Positions 1-13,069 of a stretch of 13,069 bases of DNA are shown piece by piece. The stretch is taken from contig WTJQ01000057.1 of NCBI GenBank assembly GCA_011524785.1, positions 1 through 13,069 on the forward strand, given 5' to 3'. Source of the stretch: Planctomycetota bacterium (GTDB lineage Bacteria; Planctomycetota; UBA1135; GCA-002686595). Position numbers and translations under genes: made by a program. Position 1 is the first letter of the stretch. Each line of letters starts with the position of its first letter. The notes beneath the pieces were generated by a model. It saw nothing but the letters and a program-made list of their open reading frames with translations, searched no databases and had not been told where the DNA came from.

Positions 1-848
1 TGCGCGAAGTGGTCCGAGGGCACGTCCGCGGGGCGCGCGCTGTCGGGCACGGCCTCGACGCGCTCCTGCTGGACGAGCGCCACGCGGCGCTCCAGCTCAC
101 GCACGCTGTCGAGGTAGCGATCCAGGCCCGCACGATCCTCGGTCCCGAGGCTCCGGCGCAGGTCGGCCGCGTCCGCACGGACGAGGTCCAGGACGCTGCG
201 GCGCCGCCGCGCGCGCCGGCTGCGGTCCGCGGCCGTCGCGAGGTCCGCGCCGCCGCGGAAGAGGCGGTCGAAGAGCCGGACCGGATCGGTCTCCTTCGCC
301 AGGGGACGCTGCGCGTCCACCCACGACAGGTGGCTGGAGTAGGCGCAGGAGTAGCCGGAGTCGCACTGGCCCGCGGTCCGCGGGGGCTCCCCCCCGACGG
401 CCAGGCCGCGGAAGGGCGTCGCGCCGGAGGCGTGCTGCGCCGCCACCTGATCGACGGAGACCCCGGCCTGCACGGCGCCCTCGGCCTTGAGGGGCTGGGC
501 ACAGGTGAGCCATGCGCCAGAGGCCCGCGCGTGGTCGCCCGCGCCGTCGCCGTTGGAGCGCGCCTTGTCGCAGGTGAGGCCCCGCAGGTGGGTCACCTCG
601 GTGGCCAGCTCCCCGAGGAGGTCGAGGGTGCGAGGGATCCCCGCCACGTCGGGCTCGCCCGCGGGACGGCGCCAGGCCTCCACGTGCACGCCGTTGGGCA
701 CGTAGACGAACAGCAGGCGTCGAGGGGGCGTGGGCGTGCTGCCCGCGCGCGCCATGGCTCCGAGGAAGGGCAGGCCCAGCGTCACTCCCGTCCCGCGCAG
801 CACGGCGCGACGCGAGAGGGGCGGGGTGCAGCGGAGGGACGGCGTCAT
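1..848 (-). CDS. DUF1552 family Tat-secreted protein, 3' end cut by window edge
   Basis: Reads from an ATG at 848 to the left edge, giving the first 282 residues; the C-terminus lies outside the window. The N-terminus carries a twin-arginine export signal: SRRAVLRG at residues 12-19 followed by a hydrophobic stretch (VTLGLPFLGAMARA), so the product is predicted to be exported folded. After this come LLFVYVPNGVH and a Leu-Arg-Gly-Leu segment, with DHARASGAWLT and the GYSCAYSSHLSW segment further on, all typical of the DUF1552 family. Its start overlaps the stop of the upstream DUF1592-type gene by four bases (ATGA, 845-848) and no Shine-Dalgarno is visible, so translation is probably coupled. 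DUF1552 and DUF1592 genes are habitually paired in Planctomycetota and related phyla. The biochemical role of DUF1552 is not established; the partnership suggests a periplasmic role with the cytochrome-like protein. Confidence 0.9.
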   Translation of the reverse strand, partial: MTPSLRCTPPLSRRAVLRGTGVTLGLPFLGAMARAGSTPTPPRRLLFVYVPNGVHVEAWRRPAGEPDVAGIPRTLDLLGELATEVTHLRGLTCDKARSNGDGAGDHARASGAWLTCAQPLKAEGAVQAGVSVDQVAAQHASGATPFRGLAVGGEPPRTAGQCDSGYSCAYSSHLSWVDAQRPLAKETDPVRLFDRLFRGGADLATAADRSRRARRRRSVLDLVRADAADLRRSLGTEDRAGLDRYLDSVRELERRVALVQQERVEAVPDSARPADVPSDHFA

Positions 849-3043
849 CGGGCGCGAGGGGCGAGGGCCGACTCCAGGATGGACTCGATCAGAGCGTGCA
901 GGGAGGGCTCGGGTCCGAGATTCTCGACCAGGGCCTCGAGACGGAGCAGCTCGTCCGAGGTGAGGACCGCGCCGCGGCTCCAGGTCGCCAGGGTCCGCGC
1001 GAGGTGAGCGAGGAAGCGCGGATCGTCGGCGAGGGCACGCGCGAGCCCCAAGGGCCCATCGAGCACGAGGCCGTCCGGCAGCTCGCCGCGGTCGTCGACC
1101 TCCCCCGTGCGCACGCGGCCGATCGCGTCGAACCGCTCGAGGGCGAAGCCCAGCGGGTCGAGCGCGGCGTGGCACGAGGCGCAGCCCGGCTGGGTGCGGT
1201 GCACCTCGAGGCGCTCGCGGATCGTGAGGCTGGCATCGTGCGGTGCGGTCTCATCGAGGGTCGCCACGCCGGGCGGGGGCGGCGGCGGAGGGTCGCCGAG
1301 CAGCGCCTCCAGCACCCACTTCCCGCGCAGGACGGGCGAGGTCCTCGCAGGGTCGCTCGCTGCCGTCAGCGGCCCCGCCATCCCGAGGAGGCCCCGGCGC
1401 GGCGTCGCGCCCAGGTCGGCCGAGGGTGCTTCCGCATCCAGACCGTAGTGCGCGGCGAGGCGCGGACCGACGGCGGTGGTCGTCGCCGTGAGCAGGGCGC
1501 GAACCGGCAGCCCCTCCTGCAGCACGTCGCGGAAGAGCGCGATCGGCTCCTCGACCATCTCCGCGCGCAGCGCGTCGTCGAACTCCGGGAAGCGCTCGGG
1601 GTCCGGCCGGTGCGAGGCGAGGCGGTTCAGCTGCAGCCACTGGGGAACGAACCCCTCGGCCAGCCGCTCGGCGCGCGGGTCCGCGAGCATCCGGCGTACC
1701 TGGGCCCGGACCTGGGCCGGGGTCCGCAGCCGGTCCCGGTCCGCGACGTCCAGCAGCTCCCGGTCGGGCAAGCTGCCCCACAAAGCGAGCGCCAGCCGCT
1801 CGGCGACCTGCGCCGGACCTGGGTCCGTCGCCTCCCACGGACGCACGAAGAGGAAGTGGGGCGAGGCCAGTACGGCCGCCAGCACGGTCCGGGCCCGGGC
1901 CTCGAAGCTGGGGGCGTCGCGCGTCGCGTCCTCGAGACGGTCGATCTCCCCCTGGGTGGGCCAGCGACGCCATGCCCGCCGGGTCAGGGCCCGCACGAGG
2001 TCCGGGAACGCGGCCTCTCCGCGGCGGCGCAGGTCGATGGCCTCCAGGAGCTCGCGCTGGAACGCCGTCGCGGGTCGCGCGTCGAGGGGACCCTCCAGGA
2101 GGACCTCGGTGACCGTCACGTTGCGGTCGCGCTCGCCCGGGTCCTCGGCCTCGGGCTCGAAGTAGTCGTTGAGGAAGGCAAGGCCCACGCGGTGAGGCCC
2201 CTCCTCGAGCCGCACCTCGGCCGCGACCCAGGCCGCTGCGCCGGGTCCCTCGCCCGTCAGCTCGACGCCGTCGAGGACGCGCTCGTCCACGACGACTGCG
2301 ACGCGCGCGAGCTCGTCGCCGGCCTGGTCCGCGAACGCTCGGCCGGAGACGCGGTACAGGCCCGCTCGCGGCACGAGGATCGACGCCGTGGCCGCGCCGG
2401 TCATCGGGAGTCGACCGCCCAGGCCTCGGGGGTTCTCCAGCTCCTCCAGGAGGAAGCGCTGCGGCACGGCGCGCTCGACCTCGGGCAGGGCGATGGCCTC
2501 GTCCGCCACCTCGAGGACCCGGTCGATCCAGACCTCGAGCCAGGCGTCGTCCGTCAGGGACCCCGAGGCCACGACGTCGAGCGCGTGCAGATCCGTCTCG
2601 ATCGGCAGGGCGTCCTCGTCGAGGCGCACGCCCGTCAGGTCCTCCACGGCGTTGCGGAGCTCGCGGCGGGTCAGGCGCCGCGGGCCTGCCGGAAGCGGCA
2701 CCGGCACGGAGTCGTCGAGCGTCGCGAAGGGCTCCAGCAGCTCGAGGGCAGCCGCGACCTCGGCGGGGTCCGGACGCGGCTCGTCGAGCGGCGGCATGGT
2801 CCCGTCGGCGAGGCGCTCGTGCACCCAGGACCAGGGCTCGACCTCGGCTCCAGCACTGGCGGCCGGCAGGACCTCGAGGCTGGGCCCGACCAGGTCGAGT
2901 CCAGCATCCGGCCGGTCCCCTCCGTGGCACTGGAGGCAGTGCCGCTCCAGGAACGGGCGCAGGGGATTGGGCTCGGTCGTGCCGTCGTCCTGCAGCAGCC
3001 CTGCGACCGAGAGGGTCAGCAGCACGGAGGGCAGGAGGGCCAT
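845..3043 (-). CDS. planctomycetal cytochrome-type protein (PSCyt1/DUF1587/DUF1595/DUF1592/DUF1588/DUF1585)
   Basis: A 732-residue exported protein. A short hydrophobic signal (about residues 1-17) is followed by a cytochrome c-like module with heme motif CLQCH at 36-40 and a TMPPL segment at 82-86 that could give the axial Met. A DUF1587-like segment (RRLTRRELRNAVEDLTGV, 122-139) follows, then a beta-rich stretch at about 215-320 that looks like a sugar-binding-type sandwich. DUF1595- and DUF1592-like parts cover about 335-510. A DUF1588-like part (about 548-645) contains the family's poly-proline run (584-591) and a second heme motif, CASCH at 621-625. A DUF1585-like end runs from about 650 to 715. 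GGAG lies two bases before the ATG. The family is thought to act in periplasmic redox chemistry linked to polymer use, but no substrate is known. It is upstream of, and overlaps, the DUF1552 gene, forming a two-gene operon. Confidence 0.93.
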   Translation of the reverse strand: MALLPSVLLTLSVAGLLQDDGTTEPNPLRPFLERHCLQCHGGDRPDAGLDLVGPSLEVLPAASAGAEVEPWSWVHERLADGTMPPLDEPRPDPAEVAAALELLEPFATLDDSVPVPLPAGPRRLTRRELRNAVEDLTGVRLDEDALPIETDLHALDVVASGSLTDDAWLEVWIDRVLEVADEAIALPEVERAVPQRFLLEELENPRGLGGRLPMTGAATASILVPRAGLYRVSGRAFADQAGDELARVAVVVDERVLDGVELTGEGPGAAAWVAAEVRLEEGPHRVGLAFLNDYFEPEAEDPGERDRNVTVTEVLLEGPLDARPATAFQRELLEAIDLRRRGEAAFPDLVRALTRRAWRRWPTQGEIDRLEDATRDAPSFEARARTVLAAVLASPHFLFVRPWEATDPGPAQVAERLALALWGSLPDRELLDVADRDRLRTPAQVRAQVRRMLADPRAERLAEGFVPQWLQLNRLASHRPDPERFPEFDDALRAEMVEEPIALFRDVLQEGLPVRALLTATTTAVGPRLAAHYGLDAEAPSADLGATPRRGLLGMAGPLTAASDPARTSPVLRGKWVLEALLGDPPPPPPPGVATLDETAPHDASLTIRERLEVHRTQPGCASCHAALDPLGFALERFDAIGRVRTGEVDDRGELPDGLVLDGPLGLARALADDPRFLAHLARTLATWSRGAVLTSDELLRLEALVENLGPEPSLHALIESILESALAPRAR

Positions 3044-3500: not shown

Positions 3501-5720
3501 TCAGCGCCGCGCCACGCGCACCCGCGCGTTGTAGTCGGGGACGCCGCCCTCGGCGTCGACGCGGTTCGCGGCGAGGAGGGTGTTGGTCTCGGGCCAGTGG
3601 CCCTGGATGGTCCCCTGACTCACCTCTGCGAGGAAGACGCGGCCGTCGTAGGTCCCGTGCTCGCTCGTGACGCGGATCGGGTCGTCGGCCGAGAGGCCGA
3701 GCCGCTCGGCGTCGGCGGGCGCGAGGAAGAGGTGGTCGCGCGCCGCGCCCGTCAGGTGGTCGACCTCCTCCTGGATCATCGAGTTGAACTGCTTGCCCCG
3801 GCGGGTCGCGAGGGTGAAGACGTCCGGATCGGTCTCAGCGACCGGAGGCGTCACGCGGGCGAAGTGGGCACGCCCGTCGGCCGTCGGGAACCTCCGGTCC
3901 GCGCACAGGTGCGGCCCACCCCACTGGAACTGGTCGCCCTGGCGCTTCAGTCCCGCGATGCCCTCGTAGGCCGGGACGCTGCGCTCGATGTCGGCACGGA
4001 TGGCTGCGGCGTCCTCGAAGTGGAGCCGGTCGTAGCGCTCGGGGTGCACGGCCCGAGCCAGGTCGAGCAGCATCTCCCACTCCGAGCGCGCCTCGCCCAC
4101 GTCGTGGCCGGGGACGTGCGGGTTGAAGATCACGCGGCGCTCGGTGGTCGTCTCGGTCCCGCCGCCCTCCTGCTCGTAGCGGGTCCGCGCCGGCAGCAGG
4201 TACACCACGTCCTCCGGCTCCACCAGCATCTGGCTCGTCACGACGATGTCCGAGTGGATGCGCAGGGGGATGCGCGCGAGGCCCTCCTCCACGCGCTCGG
4301 GGTCGGGCATGGTCTCGAGGAAGTTGCCTCCGATGCAGTAGAAGGCATCGAGCTCGCCGTCGCGGGCTCGCTCCAGGGTCTCCACGGTCGTGAGTCCCCG
4401 CGTGCTCGGCAGCTCGAAGCCCCACAGCTCCCCGAAGTGAGCGGCGCTCTCCTCGCTGATCGGGACGCCCCCGGGGAACACGGTCGAGTAGGCCCCCATC
4501 TCGGCACCGCCCTGGACGCCGGAGTGCCCGCGGATGGGCATGAGGCCACACCCCTTGCGCCCGACGAACTCCTTGAGGAGCGCGAGGTTCACGATCGCCC
4601 GCACGCCGTCGCTGCCGTGGGTGTGCTGCGTGATCCCCATGGACCAGACGAAGACCCCCGTGGAGGCCTGGCCGACCTCCTGAGCGAAGGCCTCCACCTG
4701 CTCGCGCGTCGTGCCGGCGGCCGTCACCAGCTCGTCGAGGTCCAGGGACTCCAGGTGCTCGCGATAGGCGTCGAAGCCCTCGGTCGCGGCCTCGATGAAG
4801 CCCTGGTCGTACCACCCGCGCTCCACCATCACCTTCTGGACGGCGCTGAGGAAGGCGAGGTCGCCGCCGACCTTGACCATGTAGACCCCGTCGTTGAGCT
4901 TGGTCCCGAACACCGCCGACGCCGGTGTCGAGGGGATCCAGTAGCGATCCATGCCCGGCTCCCGATAGGCGTTGACCATCAGCACGCGGGCGCCTCGGCG
5001 CCGCGCCTGCTCGAGGTACTTGGTGGCGACGGGCTGGTCGTTCGCAGGGTTCGAGCCGAAGAACACGATGAGGTCGGCGTCGTACCAGTCCTTGTAGGAG
5101 CAGGTGGTCGCCGCCACGCCGACCGTCGACTTCAGCCCGGCGGTGCTGGGCGAGTGACACAGCCGCGCGGAGTTGTCGACGTTGTTCGTCCCCAGGAAGC
5201 GCATGACCTTCTGGGCCGTGTAGTAGACCTCGTTCGTCACGCCGCGGCTGGTCACGAACATGGAGGTCCGGTCCGGCTCGAGCGCCCGCCAGCGCTCGCC
5301 GACGTCGGCGTACAGCTCCTCCCAGGAGACGCGGGAGAAGCCGGGCTCCCCGCGGCGTCGCCGCATGGGGTGCGCGAGGCGTCCCAGGTCCCGGAGCTCC
5401 CGGGAGCTCCGGGAGCGCAGGGCAGCGGCGTCCCCGAGCAGCCCGTGGTCGAGCGCCCCCATGGTGTTGAGGCGCAGCAGGTTCAGGCGCACGAGGCACA
5501 GGTGCGTCCCGTCGATCGTCCAATCCTTCAGGCCGCTCGTCCCCAGCGCGCAGCCGTCGCACACGCCGCGCGTCAGGATCCGCCACGCGTAGCGCAGGTT
5601 GTCGCGGTTCCGCCACGCGATCTTGAGCATCTCCCGGAAGTGCTGCGGCTTGGTGTGACCCAGTCCGAAGGGGGACGGGTCGTACGCCAGGTCGAGGCTG
5701 GAGCGCGTGCGCTTGGGCAT
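3501..5720 (-). CDS. FdhF/YdeP family molybdopterin oxidoreductase alpha subunit
   Basis: A 739-residue protein, close in length to E. coli YdeP. It has the molybdopterin oxidoreductase body and a C-terminal dinucleotide-binding domain (about 640-739). Near the N-terminus are C54, C57 and C75 (CDGC, then HLC) instead of the four-Cys Fe-S motif of formate dehydrogenase FdhH. RLCHSPSTAGL at 186-196 aligns with the RVUHGPSVAGL of FdhH, so C188 replaces selenocysteine as the probable Mo ligand. FGSNPANDQP (221-230), a MGITQHTHG segment and RGHSGVQGGAEMGA are further family hallmarks, as is the late HWPETNTLL. The open frame continues upstream to 5915, but the ATG at 5720 (MPKRTRSS) fits family starts and leaves room for the divergent gene. 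The substrate of this family is unknown; YdeP has been linked to acid resistance in E. coli. Downstream is the YedF-like gene. A perfect palindrome lies inside the coding region (5389-5414). Confidence 0.92.
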   Translation of the reverse strand: MPKRTRSSLDLAYDPSPFGLGHTKPQHFREMLKIAWRNRDNLRYAWRILTRGVCDGCALGTSGLKDWTIDGTHLCLVRLNLLRLNTMGALDHGLLGDAAALRSRSSRELRDLGRLAHPMRRRRGEPGFSRVSWEELYADVGERWRALEPDRTSMFVTSRGVTNEVYYTAQKVMRFLGTNNVDNSARLCHSPSTAGLKSTVGVAATTCSYKDWYDADLIVFFGSNPANDQPVATKYLEQARRRGARVLMVNAYREPGMDRYWIPSTPASAVFGTKLNDGVYMVKVGGDLAFLSAVQKVMVERGWYDQGFIEAATEGFDAYREHLESLDLDELVTAAGTTREQVEAFAQEVGQASTGVFVWSMGITQHTHGSDGVRAIVNLALLKEFVGRKGCGLMPIRGHSGVQGGAEMGAYSTVFPGGVPISEESAAHFGELWGFELPSTRGLTTVETLERARDGELDAFYCIGGNFLETMPDPERVEEGLARIPLRIHSDIVVTSQMLVEPEDVVYLLPARTRYEQEGGGTETTTERRVIFNPHVPGHDVGEARSEWEMLLDLARAVHPERYDRLHFEDAAAIRADIERSVPAYEGIAGLKRQGDQFQWGGPHLCADRRFPTADGRAHFARVTPPVAETDPDVFTLATRRGKQFNSMIQEEVDHLTGAARDHLFLAPADAERLGLSADDPIRVTSEHGTYDGRVFLAEVSQGTIQGHWPETNTLLAANRVDAEGGVPDYNARVRVARR
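5389..5414. repeat. 26-bp perfect palindrome inside the molybdoenzyme gene
   Basis: Bases 5389-5414 equal their own reverse complement, centred between 5401 and 5402; the two halves are themselves related because ggagctcc occurs twice (5393-5400 and 5403-5410). It encodes an Arg/Ser-rich stretch, LRSRSSRELRD (101-111), just before the DLGRLAHPM motif. It could form a hairpin or cruciform, or be a short local duplication in a family linker. Confidence 0.85.
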
Positions 5721-5832
5721 GGGCGCGAGGATAGGGTCTGCTGGCTGCCTGCGGACGGGAGCGGTATCGTGATCGCCCCCGCGAATCCTGGAGGGAGCCC
5801 CTCTGGTCGGTCCGGGATCGAGGAGGCCCTTC
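5721..5832. promoter_or_regulatory. divergent intergenic region, molybdoenzyme / ferritin-like gene
   Basis: This 112-base gap separates the divergent starts of the FdhF/YdeP-type gene (minus) and the small ferritin-like gene (plus), so both promoters must lie here or inside the genes. I could not identify convincing -35/-10 hexamers. The only clear signal is GAGGAGG at 5820-5826, a strong Shine-Dalgarno six bases before the ATG of the plus-strand gene. The molybdoenzyme start has no comparable site. Confidence 0.5.
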
Positions 5833-6480
5833 ATGGAGAGCGCGCTGCGGATGGACGAGCGGGAGGCGGACCTCGCCGCCCGCACCGAGGCCGCGCTCTG
5901 GGACGACCTGATCACCGAGTCGGACGCGCCGCGCCTCTCGAGGTTCCTGCGCAGCTGCCCGGCCCAGCTCTCCGACGCCTTCTGGAGCGCCCACGAGGCC
6001 TGGCTCGCGGACGAGCAGCGCCACTTCGAGGCGGTGTTCGAGGTCTACCGCTCGGCCTTCGGCTGGGACGCCACGCGGCAGGAGCGGCTGGAGGCCCGGT
6101 GCGAGGACTTCGCGCCGATCGCCCACCTGTTCGACGACGAGCTCGCGGTCCTCTGCCTGGGCGCGTACGACGAGCTGGTCACCATTCGGGGCTACCGCGG
6201 CAACCTCCCGCTCTACCGGACGCTGGGGAGCGAGGCGGAGCGCGCCATGCGGGCCGTCATCGCGGACGAGGGGCGCCACTTCCGCACGTTCGTGAAGCTG
6301 GCGCGCGAGCGGCACGCGGAGGACCTGGGGCGCGTGCCCGCCCTCGTCGCGCGCATCCGGGGAACGGAGGGCGTGCCCTACGCCGCCACCTTCGTGCTCG
6401 ACCACGACGACCCCGTCTACGGGGACGACCTGTACGACGAGGCCGCCGAGCTCCTGATCCGGCGGCTGCGTCCGCGCTGA
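5833..6480 (+). CDS. small ferritin-like (probable diiron) protein
   Basis: A 215-residue, highly charged and mostly helical protein without a signal peptide, preceded by a strong GAGGAGG ribosome site. Two ExxH motifs sit where the ferritin-like fold would put them: E61-x-x-H64 (DEQRHFEAVFEVY) and E146-x-x-H149 (ADEGRHFRTFVKLA), with acidic residues E103 and E114 in the helix between (DDELAVLCLGAYDEL). An acidic residue of an earlier helix could complete a six-ligand carboxylate diiron site. The ligand pattern is that of ferritin, rubrerythrin and MiaE relatives, but I do not recognise a named family. It is transcribed divergently from the molybdoenzyme and ends 19 bases from the convergent SDR gene. 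A role in iron or peroxide handling, or as a diiron oxygenase, is inference. Confidence 0.75.
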   Translation: MESALRMDEREADLAARTEAALWDDLITESDAPRLSRFLRSCPAQLSDAFWSAHEAWLADEQRHFEAVFEVYRSAFGWDATRQERLEARCEDFAPIAHLFDDELAVLCLGAYDELVTIRGYRGNLPLYRTLGSEAERAMRAVIADEGRHFRTFVKLARERHAEDLGRVPALVARIRGTEGVPYAATFVLDHDDPVYGDDLYDEAAELLIRRLRPR

Positions 6481-6499: not shown

Positions 6500-7474
6500 T
6501 CACGCCCCAGCGAGCGCGGCCAGCCCGGACTCCGCGAGGCCGGCGTCCTCCACGCACCGCCGGAGGAGGTCCTGGACCCTCGAGGCGCTCGGCCGGGTCC
6601 AGGGCAGGGGGTACTGCCCGACCGGCTCACGGTCGAACCACAGGCCGCCGCGAGCGCGAGCCGCGGCGTCCAGCGGCGCGGTGAGCAGCCAAAGAGCACC
6701 GTCGGCACCCTGGTCCGGCGTCCGGAGGAAGGGCCCCATGCGCCGGTGGAAGGCGGGGAGCGACTCGCGCACGGCGCGCGTGTCCACCCAGCCGGGATGG
6801 ACGCTGAACGAGGCCGCCTTGGGGCCGAGGAGCCGATGGAGCGCGTCGGCGACGACGATCTGGCCGCGTTTCGTGCGCGCGTAGGAGCGCACTTCGTCGT
6901 AGCCGTCCTTGCCCTCGACCCCGTCCGCGAGCTCCGCGGGAGCGAGGCCCTGCGTGTAGGCGCCGCCGGACGTCATCCACACGAGGCGTCCGCCGCCCGC
7001 GCGCAGCCGCGGGAGCAGCGCCTCGGTGAGGACCAGCGGGCCGAGGAGGTGCACGGCGTACGTCAGCTCGAAGCCCTCTGGGGAGCGGATCCGCTGGAGG
7101 GGCAGGAGGCCGGCGTTGTGGACGACCCCATCGAGCGGCGCCGTGGGCGCCGCGCACGCGGCGGCGCGCACCGCTGCGAGGTCGGCCAGATCAGCGAGCA
7201 GGACGGTGGCGCCGCCAGCCCCCGCGGCGAGGACCTCGCCCTCGAGCGCGGCCGCCCGCCCGGCGTCCCGGCACAGGAGCTCGAGGTGCGCCCCTCGACT
7301 GGCGAGCCCCAGGGCGAGGGCATGCCCGATGCCCTGGGTGGCCCCGGTCACGAGGTAGTGCCTGCCCTCCAGGTCCGCGGGGAGCGGCGGCCCCGCGAAC
7401 CGCCGCGCGTGACGCTCGAAGCCTCGACGGTCGAAGGAGCGCCAGACGAGCAGGTCCTGAAGGGTCGTCGGCAT
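6500..7474 (-). CDS. DHRS12-like short-chain dehydrogenase/reductase
   Basis: A 324-residue SDR-family NAD(P)-dependent oxidoreductase. The cofactor loop TGATQGIG is at 43-50, followed by the ADLADL segment, HNAG, catalytic Ser in MTSGG, and the YARTK (Tyr-x-x-x-Lys) catalytic pair, then VHPGWVDT. The N-terminal extension (WRSFDRRGFERHARRF), the PGWVDTRAVRESLPAFHRRMG segment and the GLWFDREPV end resemble human DHRS12 and its bacterial relatives. The frame is open back to 7627, but the ATG at 7474 gives the family's usual length and the extra residues upstream are low-complexity. The substrate is unknown; DHRS12-like proteins are often assumed to act on lipids or ketones. It converges with the ferritin-like gene and is divergent from the penicillin acylase-like gene. 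Confidence 0.9.
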   Translation of the reverse strand: MPTTLQDLLVWRSFDRRGFERHARRFAGPPLPADLEGRHYLVTGATQGIGHALALGLASRGAHLELLCRDAGRAAALEGEVLAAGAGGATVLLADLADLAAVRAAACAAPTAPLDGVVHNAGLLPLQRIRSPEGFELTYAVHLLGPLVLTEALLPRLRAGGGRLVWMTSGGAYTQGLAPAELADGVEGKDGYDEVRSYARTKRGQIVVADALHRLLGPKAASFSVHPGWVDTRAVRESLPAFHRRMGPFLRTPDQGADGALWLLTAPLDAAARARGGLWFDREPVGQYPLPWTRPSASRVQDLLRRCVEDAGLAESGLAALAGA

Positions 7475-7688
7475 GGACGTGGTCGGTGCGAGGGCCGGGG
7501 TCCCGGATCGAGGCAAGGAGGTCCACGCAGCGGAGCTGCAGACGCATCCGGGGAGCGCGCAGGATGACGACTGCGTGAATTCGGCTGCGCTGTCCCCCAT
7601 TGTGGGCGGAGAGGGTTGCGGGTTCACCGCTCGCGGTCGACCCTGGGGGACTCGGATCCCCGCGGCCCCCTCTCTGCGCCCCTCTCTC
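7475..7688. promoter_or_regulatory. divergent intergenic region, SDR / acylase-like gene
   Basis: About 214 bases between the SDR start (minus) and the chosen acylase start (plus). It should hold both promoters, but I find no convincing promoter hexamers, operators or strong hairpins. The plus-strand acylase frame is open through it, back to an ATG at 7473, so part of it could be coding if an earlier start (for example GTG at 7602) is used. Confidence 0.4.
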
Positions 7689-10193
7689 GTGACCTTCGCC
7701 GCTCGCGCCTCGGCTCCCCTTGGAGCCGGCCTCCTCGCCGTCGTGGCGGGGTGTTCGGGCGGTGGTGCCCCGGCTGTCGCGACCGCGCCCGGGACCGGCA
7801 GCCTCCAGGCGCCTCCGAGCGGCTCGCCCGGCGGCCCCTATCTCGAGGGCACGACGCCGACGCGACCCGATGGGCGTCAGGACGACGCGGTCCGTCCCGA
7901 GGTCCGGATCGCCCGTGACGACCGGGGAGTGGCCATGGTGTCGGCAGGGTCGGACGCCGCGGCCCTGTACGGACTCGGGTGGGCGCACGCTCACGACCGA
8001 CTGGCGCAGATGACCTGGGGCGCACTCGCCCTGCAGGGTCGGCTGGCCGAGTTCCTCGGAGACACGGACCTCGCGGGCCCGGACCTCCTCGACGATCGCT
8101 TCGAGAACACGGTCGCCCACGACGTGAGCATGCGACGACGCGGTCTCTGGCGGCTGGCGAAGCGCGTCACCGCGGAGCTCGACGACGAGACGCGCGCCCT
8201 CGTGGGTGCGTACTGCCAGGGGGTCAACGCGCGCATCGCCTCCCTGCCGGCACTTCCCCGGGCGCTGACCGACCACGGCGTCTCCGCCTCCCTCTGGACT
8301 CCGGCCCACGTGGTCGGCGTCTGGCTGCAGGCAGCCCAGCTGTACGGAGGGGATGGCCTCGGCAAGGCCAAGGTCTTCAACCAGAGCGCGAACGGGACGT
8401 TCGACCTGGGCCCGCTGCCGGACGATCAGTCCGCGGGCGTGGTCCAGGAGATCGACGTCCCCACGGCGTGGGTCCAGGAGGTCCGAGACTTCGCGGAGAG
8501 CGTGGGCCTCGATCCTGACGCCGGCTTCGTGGGCGGAGGGGACGACGACCCGGCCTTCAGCCACACCTGGGCCGTCCGCCGCCCCGGCGGCGCGCTGCTC
8601 GTGGGCGCGCCCCGGATCCCGGTGATGCTGCCCTCGCTCCTGCACGAGTGGGCCGTGCACGGTGAGACCCTCCACGGCCGCGGCTGGGGCTTCGTGGGCG
8701 CGCCGGTCCTGCTCGCGGGCTTCAACACGTCGACCGCCTGGAGCGTCACCAGCGCCGGCCTCCACCAGGCCGACGTCTTCATCCTCGACCGCTTCGGTCC
8801 GGACCGCGTCCGCCTCGACGGGCAGATCGTGTCCATCGACACGACGCTCGAGATCGTCCGCGTGGCCAGCGGTCCCGACCGCAACGTCCTCTACGAGGAG
8901 ACGGCCGCAGGCCCCCTCATCGACGACCTGCTCCCCGGAACGGGCCCGCAGTGGCGCTACTCGTGGCTCCACCCGGCGTTCCAGTACCCGGAGCTCAACC
9001 CGATCCGGGCCGGCTTCGCGGCGATGCGCGCGGAGAGCGTGGAGGACCAGCGCGCCGCCGGGCACCTGCTCCCGTGGCCGTCGCTCAACCGCGTGTTCGC
9101 CGACCGGGCGGGCGAGATCGGCTACGCGCTCACTGCGGCCGTGCCCGTGCGCTCGGCCGACAACGCCGTCGCGCTCGAGACGGCGGGCATCGCGGCCCAG
9201 TACGGGAGCCCGCCGTTCCGGCTCTGGCAGGGCCTCGTCCCGCCCCACCTGCTGCCGCAGACGGTCGAGCCGTCGCAGCCGGTGATCTTCTCGGCGAACC
9301 ACCGCGTGGCCGGCTCCTTCTACCCCATCCCTCTTGGCGGTCGAGCGCTGAGCCTCGGCGACTCCAGCCGCTCCCGTCGGATCCGTGAGCTGGTTGCGGA
9401 CCTCACGCCCGGGGGCCCGGGTCTCGAGTGGTGGGACCGCCTGGCGCGCGACAGCGTGGACCCCAACCTCCGCGACCTGGTCGGCATGGCGATCCTCGGG
9501 CACGCCCAGGGCTGGACGTTCGACCCGCGCACGGTCGAGGCCCTGCCTCACCTCCAAGCCTGGCTCGCCAACGGCGCGTCCCTGCTGCTCACCGACCCCT
9601 GGATCGGCCTGGTCGGGGCCATCGATCGCGGCTTCCGGGACCCCGACCTGAGTGAGGTCCACGGCGAGGGGGAGAACGGCCTCTCGAGGCTCGCTCGTCG
9701 CGTCGAGGTGTGGCGCTCCCAGGGCCTCGACTTCGACGAGTGGCCCCAGGTCGAGCTCATCGCTCACTGGCTGGAGACGATCCTCTCCGACGCCGCGGAC
9801 GAGGTCGCAGGAGTCGGCAATCCCCTGGACGTGCCCGCGATCCAGGCCGCGTCCGACGCCTACAGGTCCGCGCGCGAGACGCTCACCCTGGAGGCCCATG
9901 CTGGCGCGGAGGGAATCGTCGCCCTGGCTCCCTGGGCCGACGTGACGGTCGGTCCCATGGCGTGCCCCGACAAGCAGACCCTCTGGAGCCAGCACCTCGA
10001 CAGCGTCTCGTTCTTCGTGGACCTGCGGACGCCGGACGAGGCGATCGCCACCGTGGCGCCGGGAACGCACGAGCCCGGACGCCCCCACCCGCTCTCCCAC
10101 GTGAGCGAGTGGCTGAGCGGATACGCGCGCCCCATCCCCCTCTCACGGGAGGCCTTCCCCGCGGTGAGCGAGAAGGTCCTGATCCTCCCGTGA
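7689..10193 (+). CDS. penicillin acylase family (Ntn-hydrolase) lipoprotein, divergent
   Basis: Starting from GTG at 7689 this is an 834-residue protein whose N-terminus is a lipoprotein signal: a short start, then LGAGLLAVVAGC with lipobox Cys at 22, then a Gly/Pro/Ser-rich linker. The family's alpha part (LYGLGWAHAHDRLAQM, 93-108) precedes a loop and the likely beta-subunit start FSHTWAV, with S291 as the candidate nucleophile after autocleavage. FNTSTAWSVTSAGLHQAD (345-361), ADRAGEIGYAL (471-481) and FSANHRVAG (534-542, candidate oxyanion Asn 536) follow the family pattern. The usual Asn-Asp-Pro-His-Leu segment after the nucleophile is replaced by GAPRIPVM (306-313). No Shine-Dalgarno is visible; alternatives are GTG 7602 or ATG 7473, which would bury the signal peptide. 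Family members cleave amides such as acyl-homoserine lactones or beta-lactams; the substrate here is unknown. Confidence 0.88.
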   Translation: MTFAARASAPLGAGLLAVVAGCSGGGAPAVATAPGTGSLQAPPSGSPGGPYLEGTTPTRPDGRQDDAVRPEVRIARDDRGVAMVSAGSDAAALYGLGWAHAHDRLAQMTWGALALQGRLAEFLGDTDLAGPDLLDDRFENTVAHDVSMRRRGLWRLAKRVTAELDDETRALVGAYCQGVNARIASLPALPRALTDHGVSASLWTPAHVVGVWLQAAQLYGGDGLGKAKVFNQSANGTFDLGPLPDDQSAGVVQEIDVPTAWVQEVRDFAESVGLDPDAGFVGGGDDDPAFSHTWAVRRPGGALLVGAPRIPVMLPSLLHEWAVHGETLHGRGWGFVGAPVLLAGFNTSTAWSVTSAGLHQADVFILDRFGPDRVRLDGQIVSIDTTLEIVRVASGPDRNVLYEETAAGPLIDDLLPGTGPQWRYSWLHPAFQYPELNPIRAGFAAMRAESVEDQRAAGHLLPWPSLNRVFADRAGEIGYALTAAVPVRSADNAVALETAGIAAQYGSPPFRLWQGLVPPHLLPQTVEPSQPVIFSANHRVAGSFYPIPLGGRALSLGDSSRSRRIRELVADLTPGGPGLEWWDRLARDSVDPNLRDLVGMAILGHAQGWTFDPRTVEALPHLQAWLANGASLLLTDPWIGLVGAIDRGFRDPDLSEVHGEGENGLSRLARRVEVWRSQGLDFDEWPQVELIAHWLETILSDAADEVAGVGNPLDVPAIQAASDAYRSARETLTLEAHAGAEGIVALAPWADVTVGPMACPDKQTLWSQHLDSVSFFVDLRTPDEAIATVAPGTHEPGRPHPLSHVSEWLSGYARPIPLSREAFPAVSEKVLILP

Positions 10194-10285: not shown

Positions 10286-11176
10286 TCAGGTCCGCGAGGC
10301 CTCGAAGATGCTCTGGATGGAGCCATCGAGGGTGGCGCCGAACTCCTCGTCGGACTGCTTGGCCGACAGGCCCTCGGAGAGCGCACGGCTGAAGCTGGCG
10401 ATCATGCCGGGGTTCTTGGCCAGCTTGGCGTTGGCGTCGTCACGGCTGTAGCCGCCCGAGAGGGCCACGACCTTGAGCACCTTGGGGTGCGCGATGACGT
10501 CGGAGTAGAAGCCGTCCTCGGTGGGCAGGGTCAGCTTGAGCATGACCTGCTGGCCGTCGGGGACCTCGTCGAGCAGCTCGAGCATGCGCGCCTTCAGCAT
10601 GGCCTCGGCCTCGGCCTTGGTCGGGCTGTTGATGTCGACCTCGGGCTCGATGATCGGGACGAGCCCGCAGGCGAGGACGCGGTGGCCCAGCTCGAACTGC
10701 TGGTCGGCGATCGCCTTCACGCCCTCGGCGTTGGCGTGCTTGATGACCGAGCGCTCCTTGGTGCCGAAGACGCCCAGGCCCTTGGCGCGCGCGAGGGTGT
10801 CCTCGAGGCCGGGGATGTCCTTCATGAGCTGCACGCCGTTGGCCTCGTCCTCGAGCCCCTTGTCGATCTTGAGGAACGGGACGACGTTCTTCTCCTCCCA
10901 GAGGTAGGCCGCCGATCCCTTGCCCTCGATCTGACGGTCCATCGTCATCTCGAAGAGGATCGCACCGAGGATCCGATCACCACCGAACTTGTCGTTGGTG
11001 ACGATGCGCGAGCGCATCGCGTGGATCTGGTCGAACATCTCCTCCTCGCCGGAGTACTCGGACTCCTCGACGCCGTAGAGGCGCAGGGCCTTGGGAGTGC
11101 TGCCACCGCTCTGGTCGAGGGCGGCGATGAACCCGTCCTGGGTCTGGATCTTCTGGAGTTGCTGGTCGAAGCTCAT
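10286..11176 (-). CDS. fda: class I fructose-bisphosphate aldolase (bacterial, Staphylococcus-type)
   Basis: A 296-residue protein, the same length as the Staphylococcus class I aldolase and similar to it along its whole length: GFIAALDQSGGSTPKAL (15-31), ILGAILFEMTMDR (69-81), VPFLKIDKGL (99-108), NGVQLMK, FGTKERS, GLVPIIEPEVDIN (171-183) and LSGGYSR. The Schiff-base lysine is K213 in VMLKLTLPTE. It cleaves fructose 1,6-bisphosphate to dihydroxyacetone phosphate and glyceraldehyde 3-phosphate in the cytoplasm, in glycolysis and gluconeogenesis, without a metal ion. The open frame extends further upstream, but the ATG at 11176 matches the family start. It is single-gene, divergent from the DUF455 gene, and ends at the shared hairpin. 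A small hairpin sits just before its start codon. Confidence 0.97.
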   Translation of the reverse strand: MSFDQQLQKIQTQDGFIAALDQSGGSTPKALRLYGVEESEYSGEEEMFDQIHAMRSRIVTNDKFGGDRILGAILFEMTMDRQIEGKGSAAYLWEEKNVVPFLKIDKGLEDEANGVQLMKDIPGLEDTLARAKGLGVFGTKERSVIKHANAEGVKAIADQQFELGHRVLACGLVPIIEPEVDINSPTKAEAEAMLKARMLELLDEVPDGQQVMLKLTLPTEDGFYSDVIAHPKVLKVVALSGGYSRDDANAKLAKNPGMIASFSRALSEGLSAKQSDEEFGATLDGSIQSIFEASRT

Positions 11177-11185
11177 GGCTGGTGA

Positions 11186-11203
11186 CCGCCCGGTTCTGGG
11201 CGG
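11186..11203 (-). promoter_or_regulatory. small hairpin in the aldolase 5' leader
   Basis: Bases 11186-11191 (ccgccc) pair exactly with 11198-11203 (gggcgg) around a six-base loop. On the minus strand this hairpin ends nine bases before the aldolase ATG, over the usual Shine-Dalgarno region, and no other ribosome site is visible. Just upstream, TATTCT on the minus strand (11212-11217) is the only -10-like hexamer I see, without a matching -35. A role in controlling translation is possible but unproven. Confidence 0.35.
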
Positions 11204-11249
11204 GGCGCGAGAGAATACGGATCGCGGCCCGCTGGAGGGCCCGTTTCGG

Positions 11250-11270
11250 CTGGAATCGCGGCGATTCCAG
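11250..11270. promoter_or_regulatory. inverted repeat between divergent aldolase and DUF455 genes
   Basis: A 9-bp perfect dyad, ctggaatcg (11250-11258) and cgattccag (11262-11270), with a three-base centre. It sits in the 146-base gap between the divergent starts, 33 bases or more upstream of the TATTCT hexamer that might serve the aldolase. The shape fits a dimeric regulator's operator for one or both genes; a hairpin is the alternative. Confidence 0.5.
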
Positions 11271-11322
11271 GACCTCCCAAGCTGCCGGTGCGCGCCCACA
11301 CGCGGCTCAGCCTGTTCGAACG

Positions 11323-12162
11323 ATGGATCTCCCCGAGCACGCCCCTGACCGGATGGCCACGCCCCCGCCCATGGGGACCGTGGAGCGGGCCTGCTGGGAC
11401 CTCGTGACGGCGACCCGCTGGGAGGACAAGCGCCCCCCGCGGGCCGAGTCCTGGTGGGACGCCCCGCAGCCCCTCCGGCTCGAGGGGCCCGGGAGGCCTC
11501 CCGGCCTCGAGGAGCTCGAGAGGGCCCCCAGGACGCCGCGGCCGGGAGCCCTCCAGCGGCCCGAGGCGCGCGCGGCCCTCTTCGTCCGCTTCCTCCATCA
11601 CGAGCTGCAGGCGGCGGAGCTCTTCGCCTGGGGCGTCCTCGCGTTCCCGGACACACCGCGCGCGTTCAGGGAGGGACTCGTCCGCCTCGCATCGGAGGAG
11701 CTTGGGCACCTCGAGCTCTACCGCACGCACGCGCGACGCCTCGGCGCCGACACCGACCGCATGCCGATCCGCGACTGGTTCTGGACGCGGGTGCACGCCT
11801 GCACGGAGCCGGCCCAGTTCGTGGCCTTCCTCGGCCTCGGTCTCGAGGGCGCCAACCTCGACCACAGCGCGCGCTTCGCGGAGGCGTTCCGCGCCTGCGG
11901 CGACGAGGAGGGAGCCGCGATCCTCGAGCGCGTGGGCCGCGACGAGGTCCGGCACGTCGCGTTCTCGCGGACCTGGTTCGAGCACTTCACGGGCCAGCCC
12001 CTCGACTTCGAGCAGTGGGCAGAGGCGCTCCCCGCTCCGCTCACGCCGGCCCTGTTCCGGGGGACGCCTCTTCAGCGCACTGCCCGCGCGGCAGCCGGCA
12101 TGGACACGACCTTCCTCGACGCACTCGCGCGAGCGCCACGCGCGACGGAGCGCCCGCGGTGA
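11323..12162 (+). CDS. DUF455 family ferritin-like diiron protein
   Basis: A 279-residue protein from the ATG at 11323. It shows the DUF455 (MiaE-like ferritin fold) pattern: FLHHELQAAELFAWG (90-104, with E94), ASEELGHLELY (123-133, with E126-x-x-H129), LGLEGANLDHSARF (172-185, with E175) and RDEVRHVAFSRTWF (206-219, with E208-x-x-H211). Together these supply the four carboxylates and two histidines of a carboxylate-bridged diiron site. ATGs at 11353 and 11371 are possible starts, since no Shine-Dalgarno decides the case; the frame is also open upstream to 11182. No signal peptide, so cytoplasmic. The biochemical function of DUF455 is unknown; the fold suggests a hydroxylase, desaturase or related oxidase. 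Its stop overlaps the start of the next gene by four bases (GTGA), indicating translational coupling with the ATP-grasp-like protein. Confidence 0.9.
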   Translation: MDLPEHAPDRMATPPPMGTVERACWDLVTATRWEDKRPPRAESWWDAPQPLRLEGPGRPPGLEELERAPRTPRPGALQRPEARAALFVRFLHHELQAAELFAWGVLAFPDTPRAFREGLVRLASEELGHLELYRTHARRLGADTDRMPIRDWFWTRVHACTEPAQFVAFLGLGLEGANLDHSARFAEAFRACGDEEGAAILERVGRDEVRHVAFSRTWFEHFTGQPLDFEQWAEALPAPLTPALFRGTPLQRTARAAAGMDTTFLDALARAPRATERPR

Positions 12163-13069
12163 GTGAGGCCCCGCGGCGCGTCTGGGTCCTGAACCTCGAC
12201 GCCGAGACCGAGCTCGCGACCCGCGGTCCGTACACCCGCTCCGCCCACCTCGCCCGGATCCTGCGGAGGCAGGAGCAGGCGCTCGCCGCGAGCCTCGTCC
12301 CCGAGGGGGATCTCCTCCTCACCGAGAGCAACCACGCGCGGCTCGAGGCCTCCGGAGAGGCGGCGGGTCTCGAGGGTGTTGCCTGGTGCCCCACGCCCTC
12401 CGCACGGCGGGCCTTGGAGGCGGTCGGAGCATGTCCGCCAGGTGGGGCCGAGGCCGCCAGCCTGGCGACCGTCAACCAGCGCCCCTTCGCGACCGAGGTG
12501 CGCCGCTCGCTCGGAGAGCATGCGCTCGAGAAAGACACTGCCGTCACCCTGGAGGACGCCCTCACCCTGCTCGCCCGGCCCGCGGAGCTGGGCTGGCTGG
12601 TGCGCCGCACCTTCGGGGCAGCAGGCCGCGGACGGAGGCGGATCGCTGCCGGGAGGCCAGCGCCCGACGAGGTCGCCTGGCTGCAGGCCTCCCTGCGTGA
12701 GGGGCCCCTGACTGTCGAGCCGTGGGTGGAGGTCGTGACCGAGTTCACGCGCTCGGGGTACGTGACGGACACCGGGCTCGTCGTCCTCGCACCGCCCACC
12801 CTCCAGCGGACGACCGCCGAGGGCGCCTGGGTCGCCTCCGAGCTCGCGGAGGCGGATGCCGTCACGGCTGCGCATGACGAAGCCCTCCAGGAGGCACTCG
12901 AGGCCGCCGGTCACGCCCTCCTAGTGGCCGGGCACCGCGGCGCCTTCGGGATCGATGCCTTCCTCCATCGCTGGAAGGGTTCGGTGGAACTGAACCCGCT
13001 GAGTGAGATCAACGCGCGGTACACGATGGACTGGGCGCTGAGCTTCGGGCAGCGAGCGCGCCCCGACCT
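12159..13069 (+). CDS. ATP-grasp-like protein, 3' end cut by window edge
   Basis: Starts at GTG 12159, overlapping the DUF455 stop (GTGA), and stays open to the right edge for 303 codons; the C-terminus is outside the window. An N-terminal segment (RRVWVLNLDAETEL) resembles a pre-ATP-grasp strand. LVRRTFGAAGRGRRRI (147-162) has a basic strand and a glycine-rich loop like the ATP-binding loop, LTVEPWVEVVTEFTRSGYV (184-202) resembles the adenine/ribose-binding region, and HRGAFGIDAFLH (259-270) precedes VELNPLSEINARYTM (276-290), whose E277, N279, E283, N285 and R287 match the metal/phosphate ligands of ATP-grasp ligases. Such enzymes join a carboxylate to an amine or thiol through an acyl-phosphate. 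Substrate unknown. Codon bias and GC content match the neighbours. It is easily missed because it has no ATG near its start. Confidence 0.85.
   Translation, partial: MSEAPRRVWVLNLDAETELATRGPYTRSAHLARILRRQEQALAASLVPEGDLLLTESNHARLEASGEAAGLEGVAWCPTPSARRALEAVGACPPGGAEAASLATVNQRPFATEVRRSLGEHALEKDTAVTLEDALTLLARPAELGWLVRRTFGAAGRGRRRIAAGRPAPDEVAWLQASLREGPLTVEPWVEVVTEFTRSGYVTDTGLVVLAPPTLQRTTAEGAWVASELAEADAVTAAHDEALQEALEAAGHALLVAGHRGAFGIDAFLHRWKGSVELNPLSEINARYTMDWALSFGQRARPD

Follow-up and report, generated by a model that had tools for sequence, protein, structure and literature searches.

Why should a gene for a predicted diiron protein of the DUF455 family overlap a gene for a protein with an ATP-grasp fold, and do the two proteins act together? 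This question is raised by the right end of a stretch of 13,069 nucleotides from a Planctomycetota bacterium (contig WTJQ01000057.1 of assembly GCA_011524785.1), here called the window. The window is the entire contig (C196 in our numbering) in a genome bin of 652 contigs, 3.43 Mb and about 79% completeness. The two genes lie on its forward strand, as do all the sites given below for their products: the DUF455 gene at 11323..12162 (279 amino acids) and the ATP-grasp gene at 12159..13069 (303 amino acids present in the window). There is strong evidence, from pairing, co-occurrence, gene fusions and a shared split in the protein trees, that this pair is a conserved module.

The TGA stop of the DUF455 gene is inside the GTG start of the ATP-grasp gene, in the sequence 5′-GTGA at 12159..12162, so that the overlap and the two frames given in a preliminary description of this DNA were confirmed. 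Because the window is the whole contig and the ATP-grasp gene runs to its end, this gene is cut; about three residues are missing, as a relative with 97% identity (P0003) has 306 amino acids. Translation of the DUF455 gene is taken to start from the ATG at 11323, although it could also begin further downstream, at the in-frame ATG of 11353 or of 11371. A start codon that gives the 4-base overlap was available in 32 of 45 same-strand loci (window included; two of the 45 are fusions).

Within the order to which the window genome belongs, we searched 154 genomes for each gene, with DUF455 counted above its cut-off. The ATP-grasp gene was found in 76 genomes and DUF455 in 72, and all of the 72 also had the ATP-grasp gene. 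In 64 of these 72 genomes, the genes were adjacent on the same strand with DUF455 first, a recurrence that is more than chance. Where the ATP-grasp gene was found without DUF455, it was at a contig end in three genomes (G064, G074 and G085); in G039, it was not at a contig end, and this genome, to the extent that the bin covers it, is a genuine exception. Planctomycetes bacterium Pla86 (CP036296.1; L049 and L162) carries a second ATP-grasp copy without an adjoining DUF455 gene, in addition to one complete pair.

We then drew 343 genomes from the phylum Planctomycetota, 14 of which were positives of the order survey, and searched them with an ATP-grasp profile built from 34 relatives (E < 1e-15). 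The ATP-grasp gene was present in 80 genomes, DUF455 in 104, both in 78, and the two were adjacent in 55. Outside the order of the window genome, both genes were found in 64 genomes and were adjacent in 41. Only 2 of the 80 genomes had the ATP-grasp gene without DUF455 (G281, on a short contig, and G314). The converse was seen in 26 of the 104 genomes with DUF455. Nine of these 26 (L116-L122, L134, L135) scored 63-117 bits against a profile of the DUF455 proteins found in pairs, for which we set the border at 150 bits; by sequence comparison, these nine appear to carry another, stand-alone subfamily.

Both genes were present and not adjacent in 23 genomes of this draw. Twenty of them belong to a single family, f32, several members of which have single-contig genomes: the same 20 genomes hold both genes, never next to each other, and no recurring third gene was evident around the separate genes. 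The association thus outlasts the loss of linkage. In the other three genomes, the genes were on two contigs (G216) or were present as pieces at contig ends (G293 and G320), and in G320 the weak ATP-grasp piece does come after DUF455.

A scan of named genomes in the GTDB extended the pairing to a second phylum. It gave 69 ATP-grasp loci, although many of the planctomycete ones repeat genomes of the order survey (Pla86, for example, is G005) and are not independent. DUF455 was directly upstream in 55 of the 69. Among 25 loci assigned by title to Myxococcota, its subgroups or Deltaproteobacteria, 22 had the adjacent pair; the other three were at a contig start (L180) or in genomes with DUF455 elsewhere (L192 and L195). 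For the 14 of the 69 loci without an adjacent DUF455 gene, the genomes of eight were searched and seven had DUF455 over the cut-off. Six of these eight repeat the order survey, as judged by coordinates or contig (the DUF455 gene of Pla86 is that of its complete pair), and L192 and L195 are new. Among the other six loci, L165, L167, L172 and L180 were at contig starts. Chance adjacency in one bin is ruled out by the recurrence of the pair in all three surveys; the reservation in the preliminary description, that the genes might be neighbors in this genome only, does not apply.

In 13 genomes, DUF455 and ATP-grasp were fused in one open reading frame (ORF) of 686-730 residues, or of 595 residues in one case cut by the contig end. 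One of the fusions (697 residues) is in G066, a single-contig genome of the window's own family. A fusion in G266, with equal open frames for both genes, is outside this count.

Quick trees of each protein for the same 50 loci had the same deep split, with a support of 100 in each in the Shimodaira-Hasegawa-like approximate likelihood ratio test (SH-aLRT). The split separated 13 other Planctomycetota from 37 loci, of which 21 were from the window's order, 15 were myxobacterial, and one (L096) was from a distant planctomycete. The finer branches of both trees had weak support and were partly discordant. From the shared split, we infer that both genes have been inherited as a unit, probably with joint transfer between phyla. 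An old duplication followed by loss is a possible alternative origin of the split.

The DUF455 protein (P0001) is a member of PF04305, with 128.2 bits against the Pfam curated cut-off of 34.3. Its match to PF14518, the family of haem-oxygenase-like diiron oxidases (HDOs), was under the cut-off (21.7 bits against 28.9), the Pfam scan gave no match to PF06175 (MiaE) at E up to 1, and a sequence search of the PDB with P0001 alone as the query gave no match. The predicted structure is a ferritin-like helix bundle that bears the diiron ligands, at a mean predicted local distance difference test score (pLDDT) of 94.7. The matches listed by VIA-align, where a family missing from the list may still be a neighbor, included aldehyde-deformylating oxygenases and MiaE, at 13-19% identity in the rows listed, and also ferritins, Dps and rubrerythrin; among them, the longest alignments, up to 190 residues, were to aldehyde-deformylating oxygenases.

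The six predicted iron ligands are E94 (11602..11604), E126 and H129 in an ExxH motif (11698..11709), E175 (11845..11847), and E208 and H211 in a second ExxH motif (11944..11955). We defined DUF455 proteins as the paired type when they scored at least 150 bits against the paired-type profile, which gave 110 rows, some genomes being included twice. Five of the ligands were identical in 110 of 110 rows and H211 in 109, as expected from the preliminary description, which had named all six. They were also present in all 11 rows of the stand-alone subfamily. This subfamily was represented by L116-L124, L134 and L135, which lack an adjoining ATP-grasp partner; two genomes, G083 and G345, carry both subfamilies.

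Five further residues, near the ligands in sequence, were conserved in the paired type: H93, Q96, E99, N178 and H181. The 11 stand-alone rows had I (11), S (9), D (8) or E (3), G (11) and V (10), respectively, at these positions. The near absence of this set from the stand-alone subfamily suggests a specific active site in the paired type. Judged from these sequences, paired DUF455 is a distinct subfamily within PF04305. In the open-licence literature searched, no function was found for DUF455 of either subfamily and no paper was listed under PF04305; PMC4520260 mentions DUF455 once, as a case of distant homology.

For the ATP-grasp protein, the predicted structure (pLDDT 94.2, predicted template modeling score 0.90) is a full ATP-grasp fold. 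The closest structures by fold were PGM1 (3wvq/3wvr), an ATP-grasp peptide ligase (8ynd) and BesA (8yi6), and the profile search matched BesA (E 1.5e-5) and PGM1 (E 0.0029), while a narrower profile matched no ATP-grasp entry. In sequence and in the model, the protein thus appears closest to PGM1/BesA-like amino-acid and peptide ligases.

No Pfam family matched the window protein, and its best NCBIfam match was a biotin carboxylase model with 12 bits against a cut-off of 684. PF02222 matched 10 of 30 relatives (best E 0.00012); L171 was under the cut-off at 16.9 bits against 27. PF18604 (PreAtp-grasp) was under the cut-off in two of four fusions scanned (E 0.0035 and 0.077) and gave no match in the window protein. 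Protein searches with the window sequence alone and with a myxobacterial relative found 711 (8000 candidates scored) and 1982 proteins, respectively, at E <= 0.001; among the best 120 of each, the names were hypothetical or uncharacterized protein. Viral spread found no support: a single scan of viral contigs with the window protein (P0002) alone, which reaches close relatives only, gave no match.

The glycine-rich loop GAAGRGRR (residues 153-160, 12615..12638) was invariant or nearly so in a 30-row alignment (A1). In 34 diverse relatives, D266 and R287 were present in all 34, N285 was N in 32 and H in 2, and E283 was E in 25 and D in 9. We take D266, E283, N285 and R287 to be the Mg-ATP residues, from their metal-binding roles in the ATP-grasp superfamily. 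Three of them form the metal/phosphate motif at residues 283-287 (13005..13019): the preliminary description had the residues E283, N285 and R287 right, but the motif is E-I-N-A-R and not E-x-N-P.

No larger operon was found around the pair. We clustered neighboring ORFs of at least 90 residues in 41 loci of the window's order and of at least 80 residues in 25 myxobacterial loci. In the 41 loci, clustering recovered DUF455 in 36 and ATP-grasp in 32 (37 and 39 by tblastn). The most frequent third family occurred in 13 loci, at distances that varied, and its only tested member (L066) is a sulfatase; all others were in at most seven. In the 25 Myxococcota or deltaproteobacterial loci, no third neighbor family exceeded three loci. 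A larger operon is therefore ruled out by the lack of a third conserved neighbor in the 41 and 25 loci.

Among local neighbors, SUI1, HemN-like genes, PurD and sulfatases recurred, but solely in scattered loci or between close relatives. Directly downstream of ATP-grasp, L036, L066 and L067 share a gene family (a sulfatase in L066); directly upstream of DUF455, another family is shared by L051, L052, L053, L061, L062 and L063 (SUI1-like in L053). In L109 and L115 of genus g111, the distant ATP-grasp gene has a HemN-like radical SAM gene on one side. On its other side, both loci carry members of a single family, which is a ferrochelatase in L109; a link to haem was set aside, as it is confined to these two loci of one genus. 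A role in defense was rejected, as a comparison with PADLOC, run to E 0.1, gave no match. Of the order's 154 genomes, 152 had COX1; the remaining two were incomplete bins that carry the pair, so a comparison with oxygen use could not discriminate.

Other genes of the window were assigned by Pfam. On the reverse strand are a planctomycete PSD/PSCyt protein (848-3043), a molybdopterin oxidoreductase (3504-5915), a short-chain dehydrogenase (6503-7627) and a class I fructose-bisphosphate aldolase frame (10289-11656); on the forward strand is a penicillin amidase (7473-10190). The product of the frame at 5833-6480 (forward strand, 215 residues) matched FA_desaturase_2 (E 0.0027) and MiaE (E 0.15) below threshold and is possibly a second ferritin-like diiron protein.

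What could two such proteins do together? Because many Planctomycetota and Myxococcota keep the two genes together, in some cases as a fusion, the pair very probably performs a shared two-step chemistry. The DUF455 protein would hold two irons by four Glu and two His and would use O2 to oxidize a peptide or amino-acid-like substrate, by hydroxylation, desaturation or cleavage. Its ATP-grasp partner would use ATP to convert a carboxylate to an acyl phosphate and couple this to an amine, so that the product is a dipeptide-like amide. Two orders are conceivable: the oxygenase may act on what the ligase makes, or the ligase on what the oxygenase makes. From folds, conserved residues and precedent, we infer the iron, the use of O2, the amide ligation, that both proteins serve one pathway, and that the substrate is of the amino-acid type. 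We give roughly even chances to this proposal of a minimal oxygenase-ligase module whose substrate is a peptide or resembles an amino acid.

A different substrate would be a macromolecule: DUF455 might hydroxylate a tRNA base, as MiaE does, or a protein side chain, and the ATP-grasp protein might ligate an amino acid to the same site. This is unlikely in our judgment, as the nearest ATP-grasp relatives by fold and profile are small-molecule and peptide ligases and DUF455 lacks the MiaE match; the SUI1-like family was in only 7 of the 41 loci, directly upstream in six. Rather more doubtful is a single complex in which DUF455 is a non-catalytic partner, binding iron or handling peroxide, that protects or regulates the ligase. 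Fusions and overlap do indicate close association, and ferritins, Dps and rubrerythrin were also among the structural neighbors; however, the genes are separate in f32, which would not prevent contact between the proteins, and the residues specific to the paired type suggest a specific active site. That the two are fellow travelers in separate pathways, linked by shared regulation or co-transfer, is improbable: genes side by side in a compact operon may serve different pathways, and neither of these two has a known function, but the same 20 f32 genomes hold both genes unlinked, 13 genomes have them fused, and ATP-grasp alone is so rare in the phylum draw.

On a bolder reading, which we hold less likely than not, the paired DUF455 proteins would form a novel class of ferritin-like oxygenases. 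Each would work with a dedicated amino-acid ligase, often within a single bifunctional protein, and the product would be an undescribed small metabolite, or an amide resembling a cofactor, that is widespread and conserved in Planctomycetota and Myxococcota. In contrast to known pathways with a diiron enzyme and an ATP-grasp ligase, two enzymes would suffice, outside secondary-metabolite clusters. The pairing gives DUF455 a partner and a testable chemistry and indicates which subfamily to test. The pair is widespread in two phyla, is reduced to two genes, and its natural fusions allow expression of both domains from a single construct. No paper describing this gene pair was found in the open-licence literature, as judged by titles and the beginnings of abstracts.

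How does the pair compare with known systems? The stand-alone subfamily of PF04305 shares the six ligands of the window protein and lacks the paired-type set of five residues. Aldehyde-deformylating oxygenase and MiaE are ferritin-like diiron enzymes and structural neighbors of the DUF455 model, yet at low identity among the matches listed. Compared with PGM1, 8ynd and BesA, the window ATP-grasp protein has 14-17% identity and is more than 100 residues shorter.

The 8yi6 molecule is named in the PDB as BesA, L-propargylglycine--L-glutamate ligase, and we take BesA to act in the ethynylserine pathway. That pathway resembles the pair in joining a diiron oxidase (BesC) with an ATP-grasp amino-acid ligase (BesA). 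BesC is an HDO, and further enzymes are BesD and BesB, according to PMC10187165. The window pair, in contrast, has no conserved third gene, and its oxidase is not an HDO.

Mangotoxin is likewise a peptide product whose biosynthesis combines a non-haem diiron oxidase with ATP-grasp amino-acid ligases: the HDO MboA acts on a tripeptide made by a cluster with two ATP-grasp ligases, MboC and MboD (PMC13185094). MboA has a haem-oxygenase fold, three His and three Glu/Asp ligands, and a dedicated redox partner, whereas the window pair has four Glu and two His as predicted ligands, no conserved redox partner gene, and fusions. As the mangotoxin oxidase works on a tripeptide made by its cluster, the ligase may well act first here too. 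Thus, of the joint function proposed in the preliminary description, a linked module of diiron protein and ligase was supported by co-occurrence and fusions, but the order, oxidation and then conjugation, may be the reverse. New amino-acid chemistry has already come from searching for diiron oxidases that are encoded next to ATP-grasp ligases, as reported in PMC13185094. The pair may work like these HDO and ATP-grasp pathways but is not a member of them, because its oxidase is from another fold family and its conserved unit is only two genes.
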